From a virus: 21,775 bases of DNA. The notes beneath the pieces are model-generated. The model searched no databases. It was given only the letters and a program-made list of their open reading frames with translations, and was not told where the DNA came from. This document shows, one piece after another, positions 5,051-21,338 of the stretch (positions are counted from its first letter, which is position 1; the number at the start of each line of letters is the position of its first letter). The position numbers and the translations under genes are program-made. The DNA lies in the IMG/VR virus record IMGVR_UViG_3300015371_000209, positions 1-21,775 of that record; one strand, given 5' to 3'.

Positions 5051-7048
5051 TTGAGAGTATTTCCGAGGATTCGTCTGACGCGAGAGAAGGCGCTGACGGC
5101 CTCCACGCAATTTCTGGAGGCGGCGCAGGACCGGCGCGTCCAGGTCTACCCCGTGCTTGGCGGGACAACGCGGAATGCGCAGGTCGCGGCTGCCTTTGAG
5201 CGCAGCCAGAGCGCGGCCTATGGCTGGCTCTATGTCAATAGGCCTGCCGTGCGCACGGTCATCGACTACATCGCGCGGAACCTCGCGCAGCTACCGCTCC
5301 AGCTTTTCGAGCGGGTAGACGACACAAATCGAGAGCGGCTGTACGACCACCCGGCGGCCGAGCTAATGAAGTACCCGGATGACCTGACGCCGCAGACGCA
5401 ATTCATTTTCAGATTCACTGCTGACTTTCTCGTCTACGACAACGCGTATCTGGTCAAGTTCCGGCCCCCGGAGGCGCAGGGGCGGCTACTGCTCCAGCGC
5501 GTCCCGCCTTACCTCATGTCGGTTTCGGGCGGGCGCTTCTACGTCGAGCGCTACCGCATGCACCGCTTTGACGGCTCGTATATCGACTTGCCGCCGGAAG
5601 ACGTAATTCATTGGCGCGGCTACAACCCAGACGACCCGCTGCTGGGGGTTTCGAGACTGGAGACGCTCCGAGATACGCTGGCTGAGGATTCGGCCTCGCA
5701 GGCGGCGACGGTCGAGCTGATGAAGAACGGACTCAAGGGCGGCCATATCGAGCGGCCTTTGGAAGCGCCGGAGTGGTCGCCGGAGGCGATGTCTCGATTC
5801 CAAGAGGCGTGGGCGAATCAGCGTACGCGCTCGCCGCGCACGGATCCAGTTCTTGAGGAGGGCATGAAGTGGGTACCGACGTCGCTCTCCCCTAAGGACG
5901 CCGAGCTACTCGCGGGCCGCCGCTTTACCGTCGAAGAGGTGGCGCGCGTCTACGGCGTGCACCCGCGCGTGCTTGGCCTCTCTGAGGGCGGTAGCTCGAC
6001 GGAGATTGAGGACCTCCGCCGACAGGTCTACACGGATACGCTGCCGCCGCTGACGCAGCCGCTGGCGGCGCAATTGGATGAGGGCTTGCTGCGCACAGAA
6101 TTCATGGAGGACGACCTTTACTGGGAGTTCAACCTCAACGAAAAGCTGCGCGGCGACCCCGACAAGCGCTTCCAGGCGATTACCGCTGCTGTAGGCGCGC
6201 CTTGGTTGCTCCGTAATGAGGCGCGAGCGCTGGAGAATCGGCCGCCGGTTGAGGGCGGCGACGAAATCGTAACGCCGCTGAACGTGCTCGTTGGCGAGAA
6301 TCCCAAGCCAGCCCCGAACGTCATGGGGCCGCAGAACCCGCTCGGGCCACCGCAGGGCGGCGGGCACCGCGAGGAGGCAGCGGCGGGGCCGGTGGAGGTA
6401 AAAGAGGTAGAGACCCCCGAGCCGCCGCGCGAGCTACCGGCACCCTACGCGGAGCGCGCCCTGCACAAGCTGCTGGAGCGTTTCTTTACCCGGCAGGCGG
6501 ATAGCCTCCGGGCTGGCTCGGGCAAGTTCACGGCTAAGCGCTGGAACCGCGAGCTAGGCGACGACTTGTACGTCCTGCTGCGCGAGATAGTCGGCCGCGA
6601 GAGCGGCGAGCGCTACGACCCGGCGGCGGACGATGATCCGAGGCTTAAGGTCATGGCGGCAGGGGCCGCTGAGGGAATTAACGAGTACGTTCGGCAGCAG
6701 CTAGCCGGGGCGGATCGTCGGAAGGCGCTAGAGCGGATACAGAGCCGCTGCGGCGAGGCTGCCGGGCTACTTGCTGCGCAGGCTGGCGAAATGGCGCTGG
6801 AGCGTAAGGCGATGACGATGGGGCGCTCGCTCTCGATGCTCATGCCGAATAGCGACGACCACCCTGTGCTCAGCGACCGCGAGCGGCTTGAGCGGCTGCG
6901 GCTGCTGCGCGAGCTAGCGCTGCCGGATGAGGTCGTCTGGGAGCTGGCGGGTTTCTCTCAAGACGAAATTGACCGCATGCGCGCGCTGAACCATACTTCC
7001 GCGCTGCTGGACGCGTCCTCTAATGCCGTCGAACCGAAGCTCCCTTAG
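5051..7048 (+). CDS. Portal protein with long C-terminal extension, 665 aa
   Basis: Residues about 25-420 are a HK97-type portal: AAYGWLYVNRPAVRTVIDY, IARNLAQLPLQLF, HPAAELMKYPDDLTP, DVIHWRGYNPDDPLLGVS, VYGVHPRVLGLSEGGS and IEDLRRQVYTDTLPPL. The dodecameric portal forms the DNA channel at the capsid vertex and docks terminase and connectors. After a Gly/Pro/Glu-rich linker (about 420-455) there is a ~210-residue helical extension (RALHKLLERFFTRQADS, KRWNRELGDDLYVLL) of a kind seen in some actinophage portals. The start is TTG 5051 behind an AGAGAGGG tract; no ATG fits the conserved N-terminus. It sits 18 bases from the 26-bp promoter element and overlaps the MuF gene by 26 bases. Confidence 0.92.
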   Translation: MRVFPRIRLTREKALTASTQFLEAAQDRRVQVYPVLGGTTRNAQVAAAFERSQSAAYGWLYVNRPAVRTVIDYIARNLAQLPLQLFERVDDTNRERLYDHPAAELMKYPDDLTPQTQFIFRFTADFLVYDNAYLVKFRPPEAQGRLLLQRVPPYLMSVSGGRFYVERYRMHRFDGSYIDLPPEDVIHWRGYNPDDPLLGVSRLETLRDTLAEDSASQAATVELMKNGLKGGHIERPLEAPEWSPEAMSRFQEAWANQRTRSPRTDPVLEEGMKWVPTSLSPKDAELLAGRRFTVEEVARVYGVHPRVLGLSEGGSSTEIEDLRRQVYTDTLPPLTQPLAAQLDEGLLRTEFMEDDLYWEFNLNEKLRGDPDKRFQAITAAVGAPWLLRNEARALENRPPVEGGDEIVTPLNVLVGENPKPAPNVMGPQNPLGPPQGGGHREEAAAGPVEVKEVETPEPPRELPAPYAERALHKLLERFFTRQADSLRAGSGKFTAKRWNRELGDDLYVLLREIVGRESGERYDPAADDDPRLKVMAAGAAEGINEYVRQQLAGADRRKALERIQSRCGEAAGLLAAQAGEMALERKAMTMGRSLSMLMPNSDDHPVLSDRERLERLRLLRELALPDEVVWELAGFSQDEIDRMRALNHTSALLDASSNAVEPKLP

Positions 7049-9323
7049 GCTCACGGAGGATTATCGGGCCAAGCTGACAGCCCTTTCGGAGGATGCGCAG
7101 CAGGCGGCGCGCTCGAGCTGGGGCAGGCTGGATTACGACAACCTCAGCAGCAGCTACGTTCCGCTCGGCGACGCAATCGCGCGGGCGGTAGAGCGCGGCC
7201 AGCGCGAGGCGGTCTACTTGACGGCGGGCTATTTGGGGGCCTTCCTCAGCAGTGAGCTAGGCCAGCGCGTCAGCCCTCCGACCGTCAGGCCGAACGGATA
7301 CGTAGGTAAGTCATTCCGGGGCGAGCCGCTGCGCCCAACCTTGGACAAGCCGCTAATCGCCACGCTGGTTGCAATCCGCGAGGTTCAGCAAGACCCGCTC
7401 GGGATTGGCCTGCGGGCGCTGCTGGCCAACGTCGATTTGGACGTAAAGCAGGCGGCCCGGCAGGCGCTCATCGATGAGATTGAGGCGGACGAGCGCATTG
7501 ACGGATTCATTCGCTCGGTGCGTGGTACCTGCCCGGCCTGCGCCTCCAAGGCGGGCGCAGACGGCCATACCAAATTCCCAGTACATCCACACTGTCAGTG
7601 CATTGGTGAACCAAACGTCAAGGTACCGGACAACAAGAGGAATCAGCGGCTCTCCGGCGAGCAGCGCTTTGACCGGATGTCGTATCAGGAGCAGGACGAG
7701 CTGCTGGGGCCTGATTTGGCGCAGGCGGTACGCGACAACCGGGTCAAGCTGGCGGATCTCGGGAGTATCAGCGCGGACGGCAAATTCCTGACCAACCTCT
7801 CGATACAGGAGGCCTTGGCAGAGCATTTGGCGGAGCGCTCGCCGCTGGGCTTCCGCGCTCGGATTGGGCGCGTCACCAAAGGCATTGACCCGGATAAGCC
7901 CAAGCAGCCGGTCAATAGCCTGGACGAGATTTACGCGCGAGCCGATGCTGAGAACCGGGCGCTGGAGGAATTCCTAGACCTCGGTAGGGGCGTGTCAAGA
8001 GAGCTAGGGGCGGGCGAGCTACGCGCGGCCGAGGGGAATTTCATCGAGCGCGCGGCGGCTCTATCCGCAGAGGAGCGCCCGCAGGTCATCATCGCTCCGA
8101 TCAAAAAGCGCGCGACGGCTGAGGCCAAGCTGGCGGCCAAGCACAAACAGCCGCAGGACCTTAGAGATGTAACGCGCGCCTCGATCCTCGTCCACCATGC
8201 CGACGACATTCCGGGGGCGGTCGCCAAGCTGCGCTCATACGCGGATAAGCAGGGCTGGGACCTGCTGAATGCGGAGAACGGCTTCCTTGGGCCAAGCAAG
8301 AGCGGCTACCGCGACTTGGCGGTGCTGCTGCGCTCCCCGAGCGGCTTCATCCACGAGCTGCAATTCCACATAGACCCCATGTGGGCTGCCAAGTTCCGAG
8401 GGCAAGGGCATGACCTCTACGTTGAATGGCGGCGGCTGAACGCGATTAAGCGCGGCGGCGAGCGCCCGCTGACGGCTGGCGAGAATTCGAAGCTGCTCTC
8501 GCTTGAGCGTCAGATGAAGCGGATGTACGACCGGGCCTGGAAGGCGGCTAAGCCGACGCGCGGGACGGAGCGGGTACGAGATGCACTGGAGCCTTGGCAG
8601 CGCGAGGGCCGGAAGCTTTTCCGCGAGGACCTCAAGAATCCAGATGCGCTGACCCCGGCTAGCGATTACGCCGATACCGTGCTCTCCGTGCCGGAGCGGA
8701 ATGCGGCCAATACTTACGGCTCACCGAACCTATACAAGCTGTTTCAGCAGGCCAGCCGCGATCCGTCAAAGGTTTTGAAGGAGGCGGAGGACTTTAAGTC
8801 GCGTGGGGGGGTTATGCCCCGAACCATGGTTCCCTCGGATGCTGTGTATGGTTTCGGCTTCGAAAGTACCTCGCGCTTGACGGCGGAGGAAATAGCAACC
8901 GAGATAGAGCGGCAATCGTCCTGGCTTACGCACGCGATTGCGCGGCATGGCGAGGAGCCTCCCCTGGGTACAGAGCTGGTGCGTATGACCGGCATGGACC
9001 ATTTGCCTGAGGAAATCCTGCTCCAGCTTGCACAGGGCGAGCAGGTCGATTTGCAGGACACCGGCTATCTGGCCTTTACGGACGATCTTGAGGTCGCGGA
9101 CTTCGTTTCAGCGATTACGGCTAAGGAGGCAGGCGCGGCCGACCGCGCGCTCTGGCACGTTCATACAGATGGGGTAAAGGGCCTACATACAAATGGGGTA
9201 GACCCCCACAACCACCCGATTGACGAGTGGATCTACCCGCCGCGCACGCCCTTTACCATCAAGCTGAGGCGGGCAGCCGCTAGGGGCCGCCCTGCTGAGT
9301 ACGACGTACACCTACACCATTGA
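7023..9323 (+). CDS. MuF minor head protein fused to RelA/SpoT-like and ADP-ribosyltransferase-like domains, 766 aa
   Basis: Three parts are visible. (1) Residues ~10-260 are MuF-like: a helical N-terminus, then GTCPACASKAG..KFPVHPHCQC (168-193; C170, C173, H190, C191, C193), a metal-knuckle pattern typical of MuF, and FDRMSYQEQDELLGPDLA (216-233). (2) Residues ~340-505 resemble RelA/SpoT-like synthetase toxins: KKRATAEAKLAAKH, RDVTRASILV (381-390), SGYRDLAVLL (427-436), HELQFH (444-449) and GHDLYVEWRR (462-471). (3) Residues ~600-766 resemble an ADP-ribosyltransferase of the R-S-E type: ELVRMTG (R654), GYLAFTDD (681-688) and IDEWIYPPRTPFTI (733-746; candidate catalytic E735). MuF proteins ride inside the head, and phage MuF-toxin fusions are a known class. 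Two effector-like domains in one chain would be unusual. Domain 3 has a more AT-rich feel than its surroundings. MuF assignment is secure; the enzyme domains are motif-based inference. Confidence 0.8.
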   Translation: MPSNRSSLRLTEDYRAKLTALSEDAQQAARSSWGRLDYDNLSSSYVPLGDAIARAVERGQREAVYLTAGYLGAFLSSELGQRVSPPTVRPNGYVGKSFRGEPLRPTLDKPLIATLVAIREVQQDPLGIGLRALLANVDLDVKQAARQALIDEIEADERIDGFIRSVRGTCPACASKAGADGHTKFPVHPHCQCIGEPNVKVPDNKRNQRLSGEQRFDRMSYQEQDELLGPDLAQAVRDNRVKLADLGSISADGKFLTNLSIQEALAEHLAERSPLGFRARIGRVTKGIDPDKPKQPVNSLDEIYARADAENRALEEFLDLGRGVSRELGAGELRAAEGNFIERAAALSAEERPQVIIAPIKKRATAEAKLAAKHKQPQDLRDVTRASILVHHADDIPGAVAKLRSYADKQGWDLLNAENGFLGPSKSGYRDLAVLLRSPSGFIHELQFHIDPMWAAKFRGQGHDLYVEWRRLNAIKRGGERPLTAGENSKLLSLERQMKRMYDRAWKAAKPTRGTERVRDALEPWQREGRKLFREDLKNPDALTPASDYADTVLSVPERNAANTYGSPNLYKLFQQASRDPSKVLKEAEDFKSRGGVMPRTMVPSDAVYGFGFESTSRLTAEEIATEIERQSSWLTHAIARHGEEPPLGTELVRMTGMDHLPEEILLQLAQGEQVDLQDTGYLAFTDDLEVADFVSAITAKEAGAADRALWHVHTDGVKGLHTNGVDPHNHPIDEWIYPPRTPFTIKLRRAAARGRPAEYDVHLHH

Positions 9324-10014: not shown

Positions 10015-10097
10015 AACTAAGACCACACCCCTCCTGCCTCGCCCCGGCCAGCACCTAATTGATGCCCCGTAGATGGGGCAGATCCGAGGGGGTCGGT

Positions 10098-12122
10098 ATG
10101 CCTTGGCATGTCGCAAAGAGCACAAGCTGCCCAGACTCCAAGCCGTGGGCCGTCATTAAGGACGCCGATGGTTCGGTGGCAGGCTGCCACGCGACGCGCG
10201 AGGCGGCGAATTTGCAAGTGGCAGCGCTGTACGCGCAAGAAAGCTGGGAGGAAATGCAGCACAAAGCATTCTCTGTCGATGTCAAGGCGGATTCAGACGG
10301 TGAGGCCGGTAGCTTTGAGGCGCTTGTCGCCGTCTTTGGCAACGTCGATTCGGTAGGCGACCGGATTGTGCCGGGCGCGTTCAGCAAGACGCTGGAGCGC
10401 TGGCGCGGCGCTGGCGACCCTATTCCGATCATCCTCAGCCATAAGCACGACGATCCGATGGCGCATATCGGGATCGCTGACCCGAACGACGTCGTAGAGA
10501 CGGATCGCGGCCTGCGGGTACGCGGCACGCTCGATATCCACGACAATGAGACGGCCAAGCAGGTCCACCGTCTGATGAAGCGCCGCTCGCTTAAGGAATT
10601 CTCGTTTGGCTACCGCGTTCCGCGCGGCGGCGAGCGGGCTGCTAAGGATGGCGCGAACGAGCTACTTGAGATCGACCTGGTCGAGATTGGGCCGACGCTC
10701 AAGGGGGCGAATCCGAGCACGGAGCTACACGCCGTCAAGAGCGCGCTCGAAAAGGCAACTTGGACGACGGCGTACATAAACGATTTGCCGGACTCGGCGT
10801 TCCTCTACATCGAGGCTGGGGGCGAGAAGGATGCGGAGGGTAAGACGACGCCGCGCTCGCTGCGGCATTTCCCCTACAAGGACGCTAGCGGGGCCGTCGA
10901 CATGGCCCATTTGCGAAATGCGGCGGCACGTATCCCGCAGGCCAGCATCCCGCAAGAGGTAAAGGACCGGCTGGCGGCGCGCGTCTCGCGCATGCTGGAG
11001 GAGCGCAAGGACGAGCCTCCGAACGAGAAGGCGCTGCGGCGCGAAAGCTGGGAGAGCCACCTTTCCGATTTGACGGCCGGGCTGCCGAGCGCGGCGGCGC
11101 TGGCTAGCGAGAGCATCGAGCAGCTCCAAGGCCGCGTCGAGCAGCTAGGCGGCGAGCTACAGGCGGCCCGCGAGGGCAGTAAGGCCCCGGCGAGCGAGGG
11201 CGAGCTACGGCGGAAAGAGCAGCAGGATCGCCTCAAGGGCCTAGACGTGCCTGAGGGCGAGCCGGAGCCGCCGGGCGAGGTCCGTTTCGCGCAGATCGAG
11301 GCTGAGCTAGCGCTGATTAAGCAGGCGCTCGCGGAGCGCGAGCCTGAGCCTGAGCCGCAGCCACTTACGGCCAATGAGCTACGGCGCATGCACAGCATGG
11401 ACAGGCTCAAGGACGCGGCCGTCCCAGTAGGCGAGCCGGAGCCGGAGCCGGACCCCATGGTCGAGCTGCGGGGCGCGCTGGAGCGACTCCAATCCGACCT
11501 AGCGGAGGTCAAGGCCGAGGTTCAGCGCCCGCCGGAGCCGCCCGCTGAGGAGGAGCTGAGGCGCGCGGACGCGGAGGCGCGGCTGCGCGAGGCGGAGGTA
11601 GCGGCGAGCGAGCCGGTCAATCCGCTAGCTGAGGTCGCAGGGCAGCTAGGCGAGCAGATGACGGCGCTCAAGGCCGAGCTAGAGGCGGTCAAGGCGGCCG
11701 TCGAGCGCGAGCCGGAGCCTACGGACGGCGATTTGCGGCGGCGCGCGCAGGCGGAGCGCCTCAAGGATGCGACCGAGGGTGTCCCGCCCGCGCCGCCGCA
11801 GCCGGACGTCGCACAGGAATTGCGAGAACAGCTAAAGCAATTGACGGATACCGTCAGTGAGCTAGCTGCGCAGATGCAGCAAAGATTGGACCGGATCGAG
11901 GATTCGGTGTCCGAGGAGCGACTCGCCAAGGACGCGGGACAAGATCCCCTCAGGAAGCGCAGCCGAGAGGTCGTGCTGGAAATTGCCAGCCGGGGCCTCA
12001 GCCAGCGCAAGCCGCCCAAGACGCGTGAGCCGGAGCAGCCCGAGGGGCTGAACGAGCAGGCGCTTAAGCGTCAGTCACGCGACGTCATGTTAGAACTACT
12101 CACGGGTAGGGAGGAATCTTGA
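10098..12122 (+). CDS. Prohead protease fused to a repetitive coiled-coil scaffold-like tail, 674 aa
   Basis: Residues 1-45 (MPWHVAKSTSCPDSKPWAV, GCHATREAANLQVAALYA) are a leader domain found ahead of some actinophage proteases. Residues ~52-215 are a HK97-type (U35) prohead protease: FEALVAVFGNVDSVGDRIV, LSHKHDD (H115/H117), LKEFSFGYRVPRG (S169) and DLVEIGPTLKGANP. It cleaves scaffold and capsid N-termini during maturation. Residues ~220-300 form a second small domain (LPDSAFLYIE, HLRNAAARIP). From ~366 to ~604 come four ~59-residue ELRR/PEP/coiled-coil repeats, then two related LKRQSRDVMLEL-type segments. The tail probably serves as the scaffold (delta-like). I prefer ATG 10098, behind GAGGGGG, over TTG 10059. 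The TGA overlaps the capsid gene's TTG. Confidence 0.9.
   Translation: MPWHVAKSTSCPDSKPWAVIKDADGSVAGCHATREAANLQVAALYAQESWEEMQHKAFSVDVKADSDGEAGSFEALVAVFGNVDSVGDRIVPGAFSKTLERWRGAGDPIPIILSHKHDDPMAHIGIADPNDVVETDRGLRVRGTLDIHDNETAKQVHRLMKRRSLKEFSFGYRVPRGGERAAKDGANELLEIDLVEIGPTLKGANPSTELHAVKSALEKATWTTAYINDLPDSAFLYIEAGGEKDAEGKTTPRSLRHFPYKDASGAVDMAHLRNAAARIPQASIPQEVKDRLAARVSRMLEERKDEPPNEKALRRESWESHLSDLTAGLPSAAALASESIEQLQGRVEQLGGELQAAREGSKAPASEGELRRKEQQDRLKGLDVPEGEPEPPGEVRFAQIEAELALIKQALAEREPEPEPQPLTANELRRMHSMDRLKDAAVPVGEPEPEPDPMVELRGALERLQSDLAEVKAEVQRPPEPPAEEELRRADAEARLREAEVAASEPVNPLAEVAGQLGEQMTALKAELEAVKAAVEREPEPTDGDLRRRAQAERLKDATEGVPPAPPQPDVAQELREQLKQLTDTVSELAAQMQQRLDRIEDSVSEERLAKDAGQDPLRKRSREVVLEIASRGLSQRKPPKTREPEQPEGLNEQALKRQSRDVMLELLTGREES
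11193..11906 (+). repeat. Four tandem ~59-codon repeats in the protease tail
   Basis: The anchor motif (E/D)LRR-x-x-x-x-x-RLK recurs with its acidic codon at 11202, 11376, 11553 and 11730, that is at spacings of 174, 177 and 177 bases (58, 59 and 59 codons). Each unit reads: ELRR helix, VP-x-GEPEPxP-like turn (weaker in units 3 and 4), then a leucine heptad helix such as LQSDLAEVKAEV, then PEP. Units have diverged, so the duplication is not recent. This is an in-gene protein repeat, not a mobile element. Confidence 0.75.
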
Positions 12123-13468
12123 CCCGCAACGAAAGACGTAAGAAGGCAATCGAGCTGGAGATGCAGCGGCACTCCGGCGAAATCAAGGGGATCTGGCAGA
12201 AGGCGGACGAGGAGGACCGCGAGAGCAACTCCGACGAGCGCCGCGACGTCGAGTCGAAGCTGAAGGCCATCGAGCTACTCAAGACTGAGCTAGCCGAGGT
12301 CGAGGCGAACATCAAGGTCGAGCAGGACGTCAACGACGTCTCGCGCGGCCTCGGGCAGGCCGAGCCGAGCGTCAGCGACGACGGCGGCGCGAGGGTGAAG
12401 TTCGAGCCTGCGCCGTGGGCGTATGGCCCGCCCCGCGTCAAGGACATGGGCCAGGAGTTCATCGAGTCCAAGTCCTTCCAGGCGATTCACGAGTCCTGGA
12501 AGAGCGGGAACCGGGTCGAGTTCTCGACCGGCTCGGTTTCGATGAAGGGCACGCTGCTGGAGGGTACGGGCACCTCGCCCGGTACCGGCGGCGCGCTGGC
12601 GGCCCCCGTGCCGCAGGTGGTCCCCGGTGTCGTTCAGAGGCTTTTCCAGCCGCTGAGCGTCAACGACCTACTGGCGCAGGGTACGACCAATTCCAACACG
12701 CTCCGGTACGTCGTGGAAGGCACGGCGACCTCGGGCGCGGCGGGAGTCGCGGAGGGCGGCACCAAGCCCGAGTCGACGCTCGCGCTGAGCACGGTAGACG
12801 AGCCGGTCAAGAAGATCGCGACCTCGCTTACCGTCTCGGACGAGATGCTGGAGGACGCCCCGGCCCTCCAGTCGTACATCAACGGGCGGCTCTCGCTGTT
12901 CATCCGTATCGAGGAGGAGCGTCAGCTCCTGCTCGGCGCGGGCGGCAACGACCTGACCGGCCTTTCCACTCGCACGGGTGTCAACACCTACGCGGGCGGC
13001 ACGGCACAGGGGAACGCGGCGGTGCAGATCTTCAAGGCCCTGAACGGGACGAGAGGGTCGGCGCTGCTGGAGCCGGACGGGATCATTCTGAACCCGGCCG
13101 ACTGGGAGAAGATCAGGCTGCTGACGGATACCGCCGGGCAGTTCTACGGCGGCGGCCCGTTCCTCGGCCCGTACGGCGGCCCGCAGGGGCCGATCGGGTC
13201 AAGCGGCCAGCTCTCGGGACCGACCGACCAGATCTGGAACAAGCCGATTGTCGTCACCACGGCTATCGGCGCTGGCACGGCGTTCCTCGGAGCGTTCTCG
13301 TCGGCAGCGCAGGTCTTCCGGCGCTCCGGCATCGGGATCGAGGCGAGCAACTCACACTCGAATTACTTCGAGCTGAACCTCATCAAGATCCGGGCAGAGC
13401 AGCGGCTGGCGCTGGCGGTCTACCGTCCGTCGGCATTCACCAGGGTCGTGCTCGGCCACACCAACTAG
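12119..13468 (+). CDS. Major capsid protein, HK97 fold, 449 aa
   Basis: Residues 1-75 are a charged helical delta-like region (AIELEMQRHSGEIKGIWQK, ELLKTELAEVEAN), usually removed by the protease. The HK97-fold body follows: LAAPVPQVVPGVVQRLFQP, VNDLLAQGTTNSNTLRYVV, PVKKIATSLTVSDEMLED, LFIRIEEERQLLLGAGGND, DGIILNPADWEKIRLL and a C-terminal strand IKIRAEQRLALAVYRPSAF. It self-assembles into the icosahedral shell. TTG 12119 sits behind AGGGAGG and overlaps the protease TGA (TTGA). Codon choice is far more C-ending than in neighbours (about 20 ATC to 3 ATT and no ATA for Ile), as expected of the most highly translated late gene. A large hairpin follows its stop. Confidence 0.95.
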   Translation: MTRNERRKKAIELEMQRHSGEIKGIWQKADEEDRESNSDERRDVESKLKAIELLKTELAEVEANIKVEQDVNDVSRGLGQAEPSVSDDGGARVKFEPAPWAYGPPRVKDMGQEFIESKSFQAIHESWKSGNRVEFSTGSVSMKGTLLEGTGTSPGTGGALAAPVPQVVPGVVQRLFQPLSVNDLLAQGTTNSNTLRYVVEGTATSGAAGVAEGGTKPESTLALSTVDEPVKKIATSLTVSDEMLEDAPALQSYINGRLSLFIRIEEERQLLLGAGGNDLTGLSTRTGVNTYAGGTAQGNAAVQIFKALNGTRGSALLEPDGIILNPADWEKIRLLTDTAGQFYGGGPFLGPYGGPQGPIGSSGQLSGPTDQIWNKPIVVTTAIGAGTAFLGAFSSAAQVFRRSGIGIEASNSHSNYFELNLIKIRAEQRLALAVYRPSAFTRVVLGHTN

Positions 13469-16820: not shown

Positions 16821-17009
16821 GTGGATCCCAACGACGAAGTTGCCCGGTTGAGGGCTGAGATGGACCAGGCCAAAGAGAGCATGAAGGAATTGGCAGGCAC
16901 GGTGTGGGCTTTCTACTCCGAGCTATGCGCGCAGGGCTTTAGCTCTGAGCAAGCACTCATGCTGACGATTGCCTGGATGCAGACGTTGCTGGGAGGGGCG
17001 TCGCAGTGA
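16821..17009 (+). CDS. Small helical protein, 62 aa
   Basis: A 62-residue product: MDPNDEVARLRAEMDQAKE, SMKELAGTVWAFYSELCAQ, GFSSEQALMLTIAWMQTLL. The last half (FYSELCAQGFSSEQALMLT) fits a motif recurrent in short actinophage proteins, in which a G-F/Y-x-x-EQAL turn joins two helices; the function is unknown. GTG 16821 lies after AAAGGACG. Its TGA overlaps the GTG of the glycosyltransferase gene (GTGA at 17006-17009), so it may chiefly couple translation. Confidence 0.65.
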   Translation: MDPNDEVARLRAEMDQAKESMKELAGTVWAFYSELCAQGFSSEQALMLTIAWMQTLLGGASQ

Positions 17010-18187
17010 AGATCCTGTGGCATTCAAACGCCCCGTGGGCAACGACCGGCTACGGCGCACAGACGGCTTTATTCGCGCAGCCGCTAGCGGAGCACCACGA
17101 CTTGGCTATCTCGGCGTTCTACGGGCTAGAGGGCGCGCGCATAAGGTGGAACGACATTCCGGTCTACCCCGGCCTGGGTGGAGAATTCGGGAACGATTAC
17201 CTTGCGGCGCACGCTAGCTCGCATTTCGGCGGCGACTTGCGCAAGGGGCTGCTCATGACGCTGCTGGATGTATGGGTGCTCCAGCCAGAGCGCGTCGCGC
17301 CCATGAATGCGCTCTGCTGGACGCCGGTAGACCACGAGCCAGCTACGCCGTTGCAGCAACAATTCTTCGACCAATCGGGAGCGATACCGCTGGCGATGTC
17401 GCGCTTCGGAGAGGAGCAGCTTGCGCAATTCGCGCCGCTCTATTGCCCCCATGCAGTTGACTGCTCTGTTTACAAGCCAAGGGACCGGGCGAGAATCCGC
17501 AAGCAGGTAGGCCTCCCCGACGATGCGTTCGTAGTCGGGATGATCGCGGCCAATAAGGGGCGGCCTTCGCGCAAGGGCTTCCAGCAAGCCTTCGAAGCGT
17601 TCCGGCTCTTCCGCGAAAAGCACGACGACGCGTATCTGTACCTGCATACGGTCATGGACCCCAAGTATTCGGAGGGCGAGGCGCTCGGCCTAATGATCGA
17701 GTCGCTCGGCATTCCGAAAAGCGCCGTTCGGATGGCCGACCAGTACGCGATGATGTTCGACCCCTACCCGAACGAGGCGATGTCCTGGATCTACTCGACC
17801 CTGGACGTGGTTCTGAATCCGGCCATGGGCGAGGGCTTCGGGCTGCCGGTACTGGAGGCGCAGGCTTGCGGGACGCCGGTAATCGTTACGGACTTTTCAG
17901 CTATGCGCGAGGTGTGCGGTGCAGGCTGGAAGGTCGGCTGCCGCCCGTATTGGTCCTATCAGCGCTCATGGATGGCGCAGCCGGACGTCATGGACATCCT
18001 CTCTGCGCTGGACGATTGCTACGGGATGCCGCGCGCTAAGCAGAAGGCGCTCGCCAAGCAGGCGCGCGAGCACGCGCAGACCTACGACGTCCAGCGCGTA
18101 CTCAAGACGTACATGCTCCCGGCGATTGAGGCGGCGGCGGCCCGCTTTGAGGACCGTAAGCCGGTCGAGCTAGCGGTGGCGGCATGA
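17006..18187 (+). CDS. Glycosyltransferase family 4-like (GT-B), 393 aa
   Basis: The product is 393 residues, full length for GT4. The N-terminal Rossmann half opens MKILWHSNAPWATTGYGAQ, with the Gly-rich acceptor-side loop. The C-terminal half has FVVGMIAANKGRPSRKGFQ, then MSWIYSTLDVVLNPAMGEG and the E-x7-E sugar-nucleotide motif E276-GFGLPVL-E284, followed by ACGTPVIVTDFSAMREV. It should transfer a sugar from an activated nucleotide donor with retention of configuration; acceptor and sugar are unknown. Lying inside a virion operon, it may glycosylate capsid or tail proteins, as reported for some actinophages. It overlaps neighbours on both sides (GTGA and ATGA). Confidence 0.88.
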   Translation: MKILWHSNAPWATTGYGAQTALFAQPLAEHHDLAISAFYGLEGARIRWNDIPVYPGLGGEFGNDYLAAHASSHFGGDLRKGLLMTLLDVWVLQPERVAPMNALCWTPVDHEPATPLQQQFFDQSGAIPLAMSRFGEEQLAQFAPLYCPHAVDCSVYKPRDRARIRKQVGLPDDAFVVGMIAANKGRPSRKGFQQAFEAFRLFREKHDDAYLYLHTVMDPKYSEGEALGLMIESLGIPKSAVRMADQYAMMFDPYPNEAMSWIYSTLDVVLNPAMGEGFGLPVLEAQACGTPVIVTDFSAMREVCGAGWKVGCRPYWSYQRSWMAQPDVMDILSALDDCYGMPRAKQKALAKQAREHAQTYDVQRVLKTYMLPAIEAAAARFEDRKPVELAVAA

Positions 18188-18396
18188 GCGGGCACAAGCT
18201 GCGGATCGAGGGTGCAGGTCCCGTTGGCTCGCATTACCGGGTTTGGCTTGATGACGTAGAGCTACGCGGTCTGAATAGCCTAAGGCTCGAAATGGGAGTG
18301 AGCGAACCGAATTGGGCGGTGCTGCGTTTGCTGATAGATGAGGTCATAGCGGAGCCGCCTATTGGGCCTTACACTGAGCCGAGGGTAAGAGCATGA
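18184..18396 (+). CDS. Hypothetical small beta protein, 70 aa
   Basis: A 70-residue product: MSGHKLRIEGAGPVGSHYR, VWLDDVELRGLNSLRLEMG, VSEPNWAVLRLLIDEVIAE. It is beta-rich with an LDD-V-L-G-L turn, of the style found in small phage virion-region proteins; no function is known. The ATG overlaps the glycosyltransferase stop (ATGA) and its own stop overlaps the next start (ATGA), so it is made in step with the two glycosyltransferases and might be an acceptor or accessory subunit. That last point is conjecture. Confidence 0.6.
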   Translation: MSGHKLRIEGAGPVGSHYRVWLDDVELRGLNSLRLEMGVSEPNWAVLRLLIDEVIAEPPIGPYTEPRVRA

Positions 18397-19142
18397 GGGT
18401 CGGCTGGTTACATGACGGCGGGAATATGGACGGCACTCAGGGCGGGGCGGAGCTAACGCAGGCGGAATTTCGCGCCGCTGCGCCGGAGGGCGTCGAGGTT
18501 GTGGATTGCCCGCACGACGAAATCGTTTCGGACCTCGACTGCTACGTACTCCACAACGTAGTCTTTTACACGCCTGAGGAATTGGCCTTCGCCAACGGCC
18601 CGCTCGTCAAATACTGGCACGACGTAGGCCCGCACATGCACCCTGAGGTACTAGAGCGGCTAGAGGGCGAGCGGCATATCTGCTGCTCTCCGCTCCAGAG
18701 CGGCTACCTGAGGCTAGACGAGGCGCGCTTGGTACCGCCAGCGCTCGACCTCGCTCGTTTCCGGCAGGCGGCCGGGCTGAATGGGCGGCCCCGCGCAGGC
18801 ATCGTTGCGCTGGGGCCTTGGATGAATTACGGGAAGCACCCTCGGGCGGTGCTCGAATGGGCGAACGGCAATGCGGTCGACTTCTATGGGAGCGGCCCGC
18901 TGGCTCCGCCCGGCGCGCGAGAGGTTCCTTACGACGACCTGCCTGAGCTGCTCGCGCACTACGAGAAATTCGTGCACCTACCGCTCGTCATTGAGCCATT
19001 CGGGCGCGGAGTCGTAGAGGCTTGGGCGGCGGGCTGCAAAGTCGTAACGAATAGCCTCGTGGGGGCGCGCTACTGGATCGAGCATAAGCCGGAGGGACTA
19101 GAGACGGCGGCGGCCGATTTCTGGAAAGCGGTACTGGAGTGA
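18393..19142 (+). CDS. Second GT-B glycosyltransferase, compact, 249 aa
   Basis: The product begins MRVGWLHDGGNMDGTQGGA, typical of a GT-B N-terminal fold. Later come YVLHNVVFYTPEEL, KYWHDVGPHMHP, VPPALDLARFRQA, a C-terminal half with FYGSGPLAPPGA, and an E-x7-E motif E201-PFGRGVV-E209 followed by AWAAGCKVVTNSLVGA. At 249 residues it is short for GT4 (usually 350-400), with a reduced N-terminal domain, but the donor-site half is intact. It probably acts with the other two glycosyltransferases on one glycan. Start and stop overlap neighbours as ATGA and GTGA. Confidence 0.8.
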   Translation: MRVGWLHDGGNMDGTQGGAELTQAEFRAAAPEGVEVVDCPHDEIVSDLDCYVLHNVVFYTPEELAFANGPLVKYWHDVGPHMHPEVLERLEGERHICCSPLQSGYLRLDEARLVPPALDLARFRQAAGLNGRPRAGIVALGPWMNYGKHPRAVLEWANGNAVDFYGSGPLAPPGAREVPYDDLPELLAHYEKFVHLPLVIEPFGRGVVEAWAAGCKVVTNSLVGARYWIEHKPEGLETAAADFWKAVLE

Positions 19143-19804
19143 TTACGGCGGAGGAGAAGCGGCGCTCGGCGCTGCGCGCGCTGCGGCACAATTGGGACCA
19201 GGCTGCGCGCGAAGATGCGCAGCACAACGTGGTCTCGATTCCCGGCCAAACGGTTGAGCAGTTCTTTAGCTCGGGCGAAGCTGAGGTCGAATGGGTTATG
19301 AATCGCCTGGAGGGGCTAGAGGTAGAGCGCGGCTGGCACCTCGCGCTTGATTTTGGCTGTGGCCTGGGGCGGCTCTCGGTAGCGCTGGCCAAGTATTACG
19401 ACGAGGTCGTCGGCTTGGACGTGTCGAGCGAGATGATCGCTCGCGCTCGGAGGATCGATGGGGTTCGGTACCTGCGCGCGGATTCGCTAGAGGGCTTGGC
19501 CTCCGGCAGCTACGACCTCGTCTACACGAACATAACGCTCCAGCATATGCCGGGCTGGCTCCAGCAACAGTACGTGGCGGACTTCCATCGGCTGATCGGC
19601 GCGGACGGCGTGGTTGTGTTCGAGCTACCGGATTGGCCGGACATGGAGCGGGTACGACATGCGCTGGCAATGAGCGGCGCTGAGCCAGACGAGGTTCGTG
19701 AATGGATCAAGGCGAGCGGCGGGAAGCTAATCGCGGTGGACCGAACAGAATCGGCAGGGCCGTCCATTCCCTGTTACCGCTATATCTCAACCAGGAGGCA
19801 GTAG
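19139..19804 (+). CDS. Class I SAM-dependent methyltransferase, 221 aa
   Basis: The product is 221 residues with motif I ALDFGCGLGRLSVALA (residues 69-84), the acidic end of strand 2 VVGLDVSSEMIARAR (D94), RADSLEGLASGSYDLVYTN (motif II/III) and HRLIGADGVVVFELPDWPD. This is a Methyltransf_11/25-type fold that would use S-adenosylmethionine. The substrate is not visible; among glycosyltransferase genes a sugar hydroxyl or carboxyl is the natural guess. The first 45 residues are a helical cap. GTG 19139 overlaps the previous stop (GTGA). The following gene starts directly after its TAG. Confidence 0.88.
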   Translation: MITAEEKRRSALRALRHNWDQAAREDAQHNVVSIPGQTVEQFFSSGEAEVEWVMNRLEGLEVERGWHLALDFGCGLGRLSVALAKYYDEVVGLDVSSEMIARARRIDGVRYLRADSLEGLASGSYDLVYTNITLQHMPGWLQQQYVADFHRLIGADGVVVFELPDWPDMERVRHALAMSGAEPDEVREWIKASGGKLIAVDRTESAGPSIPCYRYISTRRQ

Positions 19805-20206
19805 GTGGCAACTTTCAAGCCCAAGGACGTGGATTACCCGAGGACGTATTTCGTTCTGGGAGAGGCGATCCGGCTCGCTCCGGGCGAGACGTACGAAACG
19901 GATGACGGCGCTCTGATCGCTGCGCTAGAGCAGCACGGTCAGCTTGAGAAGGCCCGCCCCGGCCGCCCCCGCTCAGGGGATGAGCCGGAGGTGGAGGCGG
20001 AGGCTGTCGCAGACGAGCCGGAGGCCGAGCAGCCGGAGGCCGAGCCGGAGCCAGAGGACGAGGTGGATTATTGGGAGCAGCCGAAGACGGAGCTGGAGCG
20101 CGAGGCGCGCGAGCGTGGCATTTACGACTCCATCGAGGGCAGCGGCGCTGGCGGCGGCATTACCAAGGCAGACATCGTCGAGGCCCTGCAAGAGGACGAC
20201 GGGTAG
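19805..20206 (+). CDS. Acidic linker protein with SAP/HeH-like C-terminus, 133 aa
   Basis: Residues 1-45 (DYPRTYFVLGEAIRLAPGE, DGALIAALEQHG) resemble the N-terminus of small phage head-region proteins of unknown role. Residues 58-85 are Glu/Pro/Ala-rich (DEPEAEQPEAEPEPED), clearly disordered. Residues 93-133 (PKTELEREARERGIYDSIE, GGGITKADIVEALQEDD) match a SAP/HeH/LEM-like helix-extension-helix, a fold that often binds nucleic acid. Such proteins can be virion decoration or head-tail components. GTG 19805 directly follows the methyltransferase stop. The frame ends two bases before the apparent start of the next gene. Confidence 0.7.
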   Translation: MATFKPKDVDYPRTYFVLGEAIRLAPGETYETDDGALIAALEQHGQLEKARPGRPRSGDEPEVEAEAVADEPEAEQPEAEPEPEDEVDYWEQPKTELEREARERGIYDSIEGSGAGGGITKADIVEALQEDDG

Positions 20207-20208
20207 CG

Positions 20209-20802
20209 CTGGGCCTAACCGTTGTCATTCCAACCCTCTCGGGTAGAGAGGAATCGCTAGAGCGCGCCAAGGCGAGCTTCGACGCGACCGAGACGCTCGT
20301 CTACCACGACCTACCTACCTGCGGGGCGGGCTGGGTCGAGGGCGCGCGCTCGGCTTTGAACGAGTACATATGCTTCGCCGCTGACGACCTGGAGGCGCAC
20401 CCTCGCTTCGTGGATTTCATGGCTGAGGCGATTGAGCAAGATAAGCACCCGGCGGCGACGGTGCTCTGGGCGAACGGGCACCTCCAATCCTGCGGCGGGC
20501 GCGGCAACGATTGCTGCGGCCTGGGGTGCGCGGATTGGCAGCCCGTGGAATGGTCTCCGACCCCATTCCTCCGGCGCGATTGGTGGTGGGACATATTGGA
20601 CCAGCACGCCGACATGCTGGCTGAACTCCATTACGCAAGCGACATTCTCGTTTCCGCCCTGCTGGAGCGAGAGGGCATCCCCTCCATCTATAGAGCGCCA
20701 GCAACGCTTACGCACCACAACCACCCGGTGGGGCGCGACCATGGGCGGGCGCGGCCGGACGTAGAGAAATGCCGCGCCTATCTAGCGCAGCTACTGGTGT
20801 GA
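20209..20802 (+). CDS. GT-A-type glycosyltransferase (GT2-like), 197 aa, no standard start codon
   Basis: The protein begins LTVVIPTLSGREESLERAK, the classic first strand of family 2-type glycosyltransferases, followed by VYHDLPTCGAGWVEGARSA, YICFAADDLEAHP (D-D pair, metal/nucleotide site), WANGHLQSCGGRGNDCCG and FLRRDWWWDILD. It would transfer a sugar from a nucleotide donor. Conserved sequence starts at once after the upstream stop, yet no ATG, GTG or TTG in this phase fits; CTG 20209 is the best candidate, with AGAGGACG 12 bases before it. The long upstream extension of the frame is Arg/His-rich shadow. An alternative is a -1 frameshift from the upstream gene. The end overlaps the next gene (GTGA). 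Confidence 0.75.
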   Translation: MGLTVVIPTLSGREESLERAKASFDATETLVYHDLPTCGAGWVEGARSALNEYICFAADDLEAHPRFVDFMAEAIEQDKHPAATVLWANGHLQSCGGRGNDCCGLGCADWQPVEWSPTPFLRRDWWWDILDQHADMLAELHYASDILVSALLEREGIPSIYRAPATLTHHNHPVGRDHGRARPDVEKCRAYLAQLLV

Positions 20803-21338
20803 TTTCCGGCGAATTCCGCAACGCTCAGCCAGTCCAGGACGGGCCAGCAATCCTGACCGGCATTACGGCCGATGAGGCGGCGGCGCTTACCGCGCTCGTG
20901 CAACCAGATGATCGGCTGCTAGAGGTTGGTTCGGCCTATGGCTTCTCCGCTATTGCCTTAGCTATTGCGGGAGCGTACGTGCTGACAATCGACTCCCATG
21001 CGGGCGTAAACGCAGATTCGCTAGTGGTTCTGGATTCGCATGTGCGCGCTTGCGCTGTCGAGAATCGCGTCTTTCCGCTGACGGGCAATAGCGAGCACGT
21101 GCTTAAGTACCTGCGCGCTATCGGCGCAGAATTCGACGGCGTATTCGTAGACGGCGGCGGGCCAGAGACGGGCGTGGATGTAAGCGAGGGCTGGCATTTG
21201 CTCCGCTCGGGCGGCTGGCTAGCCCGGCACGATTACGGCGAGGTGCGCTCGCCGGAGGTAACCAAAGCGCTTGATTGGCATTTCCCCGAGGGGCCGGACC
21301 AGCTAACGCGAACGCTTTGGGTGAAATGGAAGCCCTAA
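20799..21338 (+). CDS. Class I methyltransferase (Methyltransf_24-like), 179 aa
   Basis: The product carries motif I DRLLEVGSAYGFSAIALAI, the second strand AYVLTIDSHAG, FDGVFVDGGGPETGVDV and LLRSGGWLARHDYGEV. The VGSAYGFSA glycine loop and VFVDG...D...L..GGWL..HD pattern fit Methyltransf_24-type O-methyltransferases of glycan clusters. I chose GTG 20799 because it overlaps the previous TGA as GTGA, the pattern of this operon; ATG 20769 would add ten residues (MPRLSSAATG) within the preceding gene. It is about the same size and fold as the next gene, with which it is clearly paralogous. Confidence 0.82.
   Translation: MISGEFRNAQPVQDGPAILTGITADEAAALTALVQPDDRLLEVGSAYGFSAIALAIAGAYVLTIDSHAGVNADSLVVLDSHVRACAVENRVFPLTGNSEHVLKYLRAIGAEFDGVFVDGGGPETGVDVSEGWHLLRSGGWLARHDYGEVRSPEVTKALDWHFPEGPDQLTRTLWVKWKP

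Follow-up and report, generated by a model that had tools for sequence, protein, structure and literature searches.

A tandem-repeat tail on a phage head maturation protease ends in helices that follow the coat protein

In the window, the whole 21,775-nucleotide stretch of viral DNA that was analyzed, a prohead maturation protease carries a tail of 369 residues, made of five tandem units that each pair a short helix with a long heptad helix, followed by two further short helices, A and B. Among the proteases of related phages, A and B follow the coat protein, not the protease domain. We propose, with a probability of about 0.5, that this tail docks on the capsid and so tethers the maturation protease there; it probably anchors the protease in the growing head rather than fixing head size.

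The protease open reading frame spans 10059-12122, and computation shows its product to be a prohead protease of the Peptidase_S78 family with the fold of T4 gp21. The Pfam match has an E-value of 3e-21 and a score of 76.6 bits, against a gathering cut-off of 21; the PHROG assignment is head maturation protease, and T4 gp21 is the best PDB fold match of the catalytic domain (E 1.4e-4). His115 and Ser169 (counted from Met1) are unchanged in 14 relatives and are assumed from the family to be catalytic. No match was obtained with the protease in a PDB sequence search or in a single-protein scan of IMG/VR. The gene stands between a MuF-like gene and that of the major capsid protein, and its stop codon overlaps the start of the directly following coat gene at 12119. 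On this point the preliminary description, which had placed a head maturation protease with a modular coiled-coil tail inside a head-assembly cluster, is borne out.

Several neighboring features deserve mention in their own right. The 48-residue N-terminal module (MPWHV..CP.SKPWAVIKDsDGSV.GCH) recurs in L325-L364, on many otherwise dissimilar head proteases and also on some late proteins of other kinds. The domain LPDSAFLYIE...RSLRHFPYK...LRNALARIPQ immediately follows the protease in the window, but in relatives sits farther down the tail, ahead of A and B. L350 and L351 encode a head protease-like ORF of 982 residues with an apparent intein-like insert (CFAGETEYLTEGGV...VMNCH), seen by eye only. 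The C-terminal half of the MuF-like protein (7023-9323) has, by eye, a RelA/SpoT-like stretch and an ADP-ribosyltransferase-like end, with no Pfam match. Glycosyltransferase and methyltransferase genes come after the head-tail genes (17006-21338); the structural operon of cluster O mycobacteriophages includes genes of these types too, for which a possible part in modifying the capsid has been suggested (PMC4351075).

Table 1. Features of the protease gene and the adjoining coat gene in the window.
Feature	Position	Strand	Details
Prohead maturation protease gene, 674 aa	10098..12122	+	likely start ATG 10098, GAGGGGG upstream
Mobile N-terminal domain, ~48 aa (MPWHV..CP.SKPWAVIKD..)	10098..10241	+	opens many other phage head proteases
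S78 catalytic domain	10275..10754	+	Pfam, PHROG, T4 gp21 fold, relatives' alignment
Domain YINDLPDSAFLYIE...RSLRHFPYK...HLRNAAARIPQ	10761..11003	+	no Pfam match; L095, L100, L103, L252, L366, L371, L372
Unit R1	11025..11177	+	short helix 11025-11075, long helix 11085-11177
Unit R2	11199..11336	+	short helix 11199-11237, long heptad helix 11277-11336
Unit R3	11370..11525	+	short helix 11370-11417, long heptad helix 11454-11525
Unit R4	11547..11705	+	short helix 11547-11597, long heptad helix 11622-11705
Unit R5	11724..11936	+	short helix 11724-11771, long heptad helix 11808-11936
Motif A, DPLRKRSREVVLEIASRG, conserved short helix	11946..11987	+	relatives' alignment, profile, AlphaFold2
Motif B, QALKRQSRDVMLELLTG, conserved C-terminal helix	12054..12104	+	relatives' alignment, profile, AlphaFold2
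Major capsid protein, HK97 fold family	12119..13468	+	PF05065 E 1e-37; PHROG major head; TTG start
N-terminal delta-like coiled-coil region of coat	about 12119-12450	+	alignment with relatives

The tail is of low complexity, rich in Glu and Pro, and the longest of the 144 S78 tails compared, whose median is about 100 residues. The motif [x]L[RK][RK]x6[LM] occurs seven times in its 369 residues, against 0.06 expected, and none of 20,000 shuffles reaches seven, a count that is generous because the pattern was devised after viewing the sequence. Comparison of the tail with itself, which is unaffected by that choice, gave a best pair of 14-residue windows scoring 49 (shuffle mean 32, maximum 45) and a top-ten mean of 40.4 (shuffles 26.9, maximum 31.3). 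The copies start at 11031, 11202, 11376, 11553, 11730, 11946, and 12060, and thus lie 171, 174, 177, 177, 216, and 114 bases apart; for the first five this corresponds to 57, 58, 59, and 59 residues, with units of 57-59 residues. R2 to R5 form one family, of which R1 is a weaker member with similar spacing. Tandem Repeats Finder did not call the array at the DNA level; the repeats are diverged.

AlphaFold2 (14 sequences, mean pLDDT 72, pTM 0.35, moderate confidence in the tail) predicts for the tail of the window protease five pairs of one short and one long helix, with two short helices after the last pair; at this pTM the spatial arrangement of the helices is unreliable, and the helix boundaries are the usable part. 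Each of the five long helices is enriched in hydrophobic residues at heptad positions a and d (p from <0.001 to 0.02), in agreement with the leucine-heptad coiled coil described earlier. Four repeats of about 59 residues had been reported from the sequence alone: the repetition stands, and its recurrence at 174, 177, and 177 bases is exact, but the array is larger, with five units. R1 at 11025, with the upstream motif copy at 11031, had been overlooked, and so had the two downstream motif copies at the C-terminus. A PEP-type turn had been assigned to every copy; of the four reported, two are followed by a strict PEP and two by different Pro-containing turns.

Searches with the coat protein led to an IMG/VR clade of uncultured phages with coats about 50-61% identical, each represented by a fragment or by a record that carries no completeness estimate. 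Among isolated phages the best coat matches are <45% identical, and the tail alone gave no convincing match there. A genome-collection scan reached coats of at most 44% identity, the nearest coat relatives being actinobacterial; it returned no tails of this kind, and most of the nearest matches that were checked were without a matching S78 ORF. Unit number does differ among relatives, as had been supposed: the window protease has five units, that of L250 two, and the others none or possibly one. The two short/long helix pairs of L250 stand in the same order as in the window, according to its own AlphaFold2 model, and the R region, including R5, matches the L250 tail by pairwise BLAST (E 3e-5). 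A profile of the R copies gave nothing significant against L250, L251, or L372. By eye, L251 has two shorter Pro-rich look-alikes without a long helix and L372 possibly one unit look-alike, while none is evident in other clade members. Units outside the protease, which would have counted against the preliminary description, occur in none of the relatives found.

The proteases of the clade mostly end in A (DPLRxxAxxxALEVASGGxSLRKPP) and B (ELKRRSRDLMLQLLSG), motifs that are related to one another. It is this helix pair, which the preliminary description had overlooked in favor of the repeats, that is best conserved in the tail: mean pairwise identity is 52% for B, compared with 31-36% for equally coat-linked tail segments and 45% for the protease domain. 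We scored B with a leave-one-out profile in proteases grouped by the identity of the adjoining coat to the window coat (at least 45%, or less). Beside coats at least 45% identical, 18 of 26 proteases had B (21 of 26 including weak or shortened copies in L103, L255, and L372); beside other coats, 1 of 163 had it. The protease domains of B-positive proteins are 22 to 68% identical to that of the window, and proteases that are 46-58% identical to the window's but lie beside other coats are without B. Four proteases without B (L091, L253, L369, and L370) have the alternative ending PExxRxELERLxAL and form a single, fully supported clade on the coat tree; in the L251 protease, B is not clear. Tail type requires three changes on the coat tree versus seven on the protease-domain tree, and protease heads of two deep classes carry one tail type, L097 and L367 belonging to a different class with the same tail. 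As the tail end adjoins the coat gene, recombination hitch-hiking could yield part of this association; however, B is conserved above equally linked flanks, so linkage alone is insufficient as an explanation. The conserved C-terminal segment is specific to coat type, though linked to the coat gene, and its conservation and coat association would fit a role in coat recognition.

The short helix of the R units resembles A and B in its L-R-R...L pattern, and homology of the repeat helices to A and B is suggested. Outside this anchor the likeness is not significant (p 0.07-0.22), and the A/B profile recognizes R1 and R5 weakly and the remaining R helices not at all; for this reason the units are regarded here as spacers or oligomerizers of coiled-coil type. 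The profile and the anchor-free comparison did not establish that every R helix is simply a copy of A or B. Copies of the C-terminal helix are also present in L365, L366, and L371. The S78 ORF of L143 (3765-4613), an unrelated protease, ends in two near-identical 20-residue helices after an (NSED)n linker, and this duplication is independent.

Because B and tail type follow the coat and not the protease, A and B would be the elements that dock the protease onto the coat. We infer the steps of binding, encapsidation, oligomerization, and self-cleavage as follows. A and B would bind the cognate coat protein, at the inner shell surface or at the scaffold domain, and docking would carry the protease into the prohead. 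The five R units would form a long articulated coiled-coil arm that provides reach and probably self-association, and the short helices within the units may be docking helices that have diverged. Once the head is assembled, the scaffold domain would be digested by the protease, which would probably remove its own tail as well.

The units might instead be a neutrally expanded linker, with A and B alone of importance. They are absent from most relatives, their composition is of the Glu/Pro-rich, low-complexity kind, and near-saturation of synonymous sites makes dN/dS between them unreadable. We nevertheless think this rather unlikely in view of the regular spacing, the heptads that every one of the five long helices shows, the alternation of short and long helices retained in L250, and a dN below dS in all five unit pairs for which both could be computed. 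It is unlikely, too, that all seven short helices bind the coat, which would make the tail a multivalent protease array over several capsomers, with unit number setting loading strength or maturation timing; if this were true, such arrays would arise repeatedly, with the helix copies in L365, L366, L371, and L143. Another possibility is that the long helices join the coiled coils of the coat's delta domain, so that the arm, rather than A and B, holds the protease in the scaffold layer. The heptads would suit this arrangement, and the scaffold domains of HK97 assemble into trimeric coiled-coil towers (PMC10275583); yet most of the clade combines this coat type with few R units or none, so that R is not a general docking element, and we regard the arrangement as quite unlikely.

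The preliminary description had taken the tail for a scaffold whose length tunes head size, more units giving a longer coiled-coil core and a larger head. Unit number indeed varies, and capsid size in HK97, D3, and T5 correlates with the coiled-coil length of a scaffold domain, one that belongs to the coat (PMC12749128). The window coat likewise has its own N-terminal scaffold-like domain, a delta-like region of about 110 residues alignable with relatives. The segment before the capsid domain measures 159-170 residues in 12 of 12 aligned clade members, whose tails range from about 60 to 464 residues, and coat length remains at 435-452 residues with none to five units. The protease is moreover a minor component, at about 90 copies per prohead in D3 (PMC12749128). 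A size-setting scaffold is thus improbable, and a role of the protease tail as a head-size gauge is not supported. Least credible is a lambda Nu3-like internal start yielding a separate scaffold protein from the tail, as the in-frame ATG at 11457 with GGAG upstream is a weak candidate whose product would begin in R3, this GGAG is part of repeated Glu-Pro codons and expected by composition, and a scaffold domain is already on the coat.

The capsid-docking tether that we favor has counterparts in known systems. As in the HK97/D3 type, an S78 protease gene directly precedes a coat gene with an N-terminal scaffold (delta) domain; unlike in that type, the tail has 369 residues, five helix-pair units, and a clade-specific A/B ending. 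HK97 protease domains and encapsidation were reportedly treated by Duda et al. in 2013. Encapsulins load cargo into an HK97-fold shell by means of short C-terminal cargo-loading peptides, to which A and B are alike by analogy only. In contrast to lambda C/Nu3 and to herpesvirus UL26, which are sole-scaffold fusions, the window coat keeps its own scaffold domain. In the SPN3US protease gp245, of the T4 gp21 type, a C-terminal propeptide is proposed to direct the enzyme to the prohead interior (PMC7411985); it has 64 residues and no repeat array, and is likened here by description. Herpesvirus protease-scaffold proteins bind the HK97-fold coat through their C-termini, and in HSV-1 UL26/UL26.5 the protease is fused to a coiled-coil region (PMC12474303), although it belongs to another protease family and its tail is the main scaffold. 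Judged against SPN3US gp245, the herpesvirus scaffolds, and the HK97/D3 structures, capsid proteases bearing a C-terminal tail for capsid targeting are already known, and the repeat-built tail is a variant of this kind; a search of titles and abstracts in a limited collection for tandem repeats and capsid maturation protease returned no paper on such a tail.

The entry of phage proteases into the prohead is understood in few systems, and a C-terminal helix that stays with the coat while the protease domain swaps is a directly testable docking motif. Such a modular ending may allow phages to bring proteases and coats together in new pairs, and the docking helix could act as a cargo tag for HK97-fold shells.
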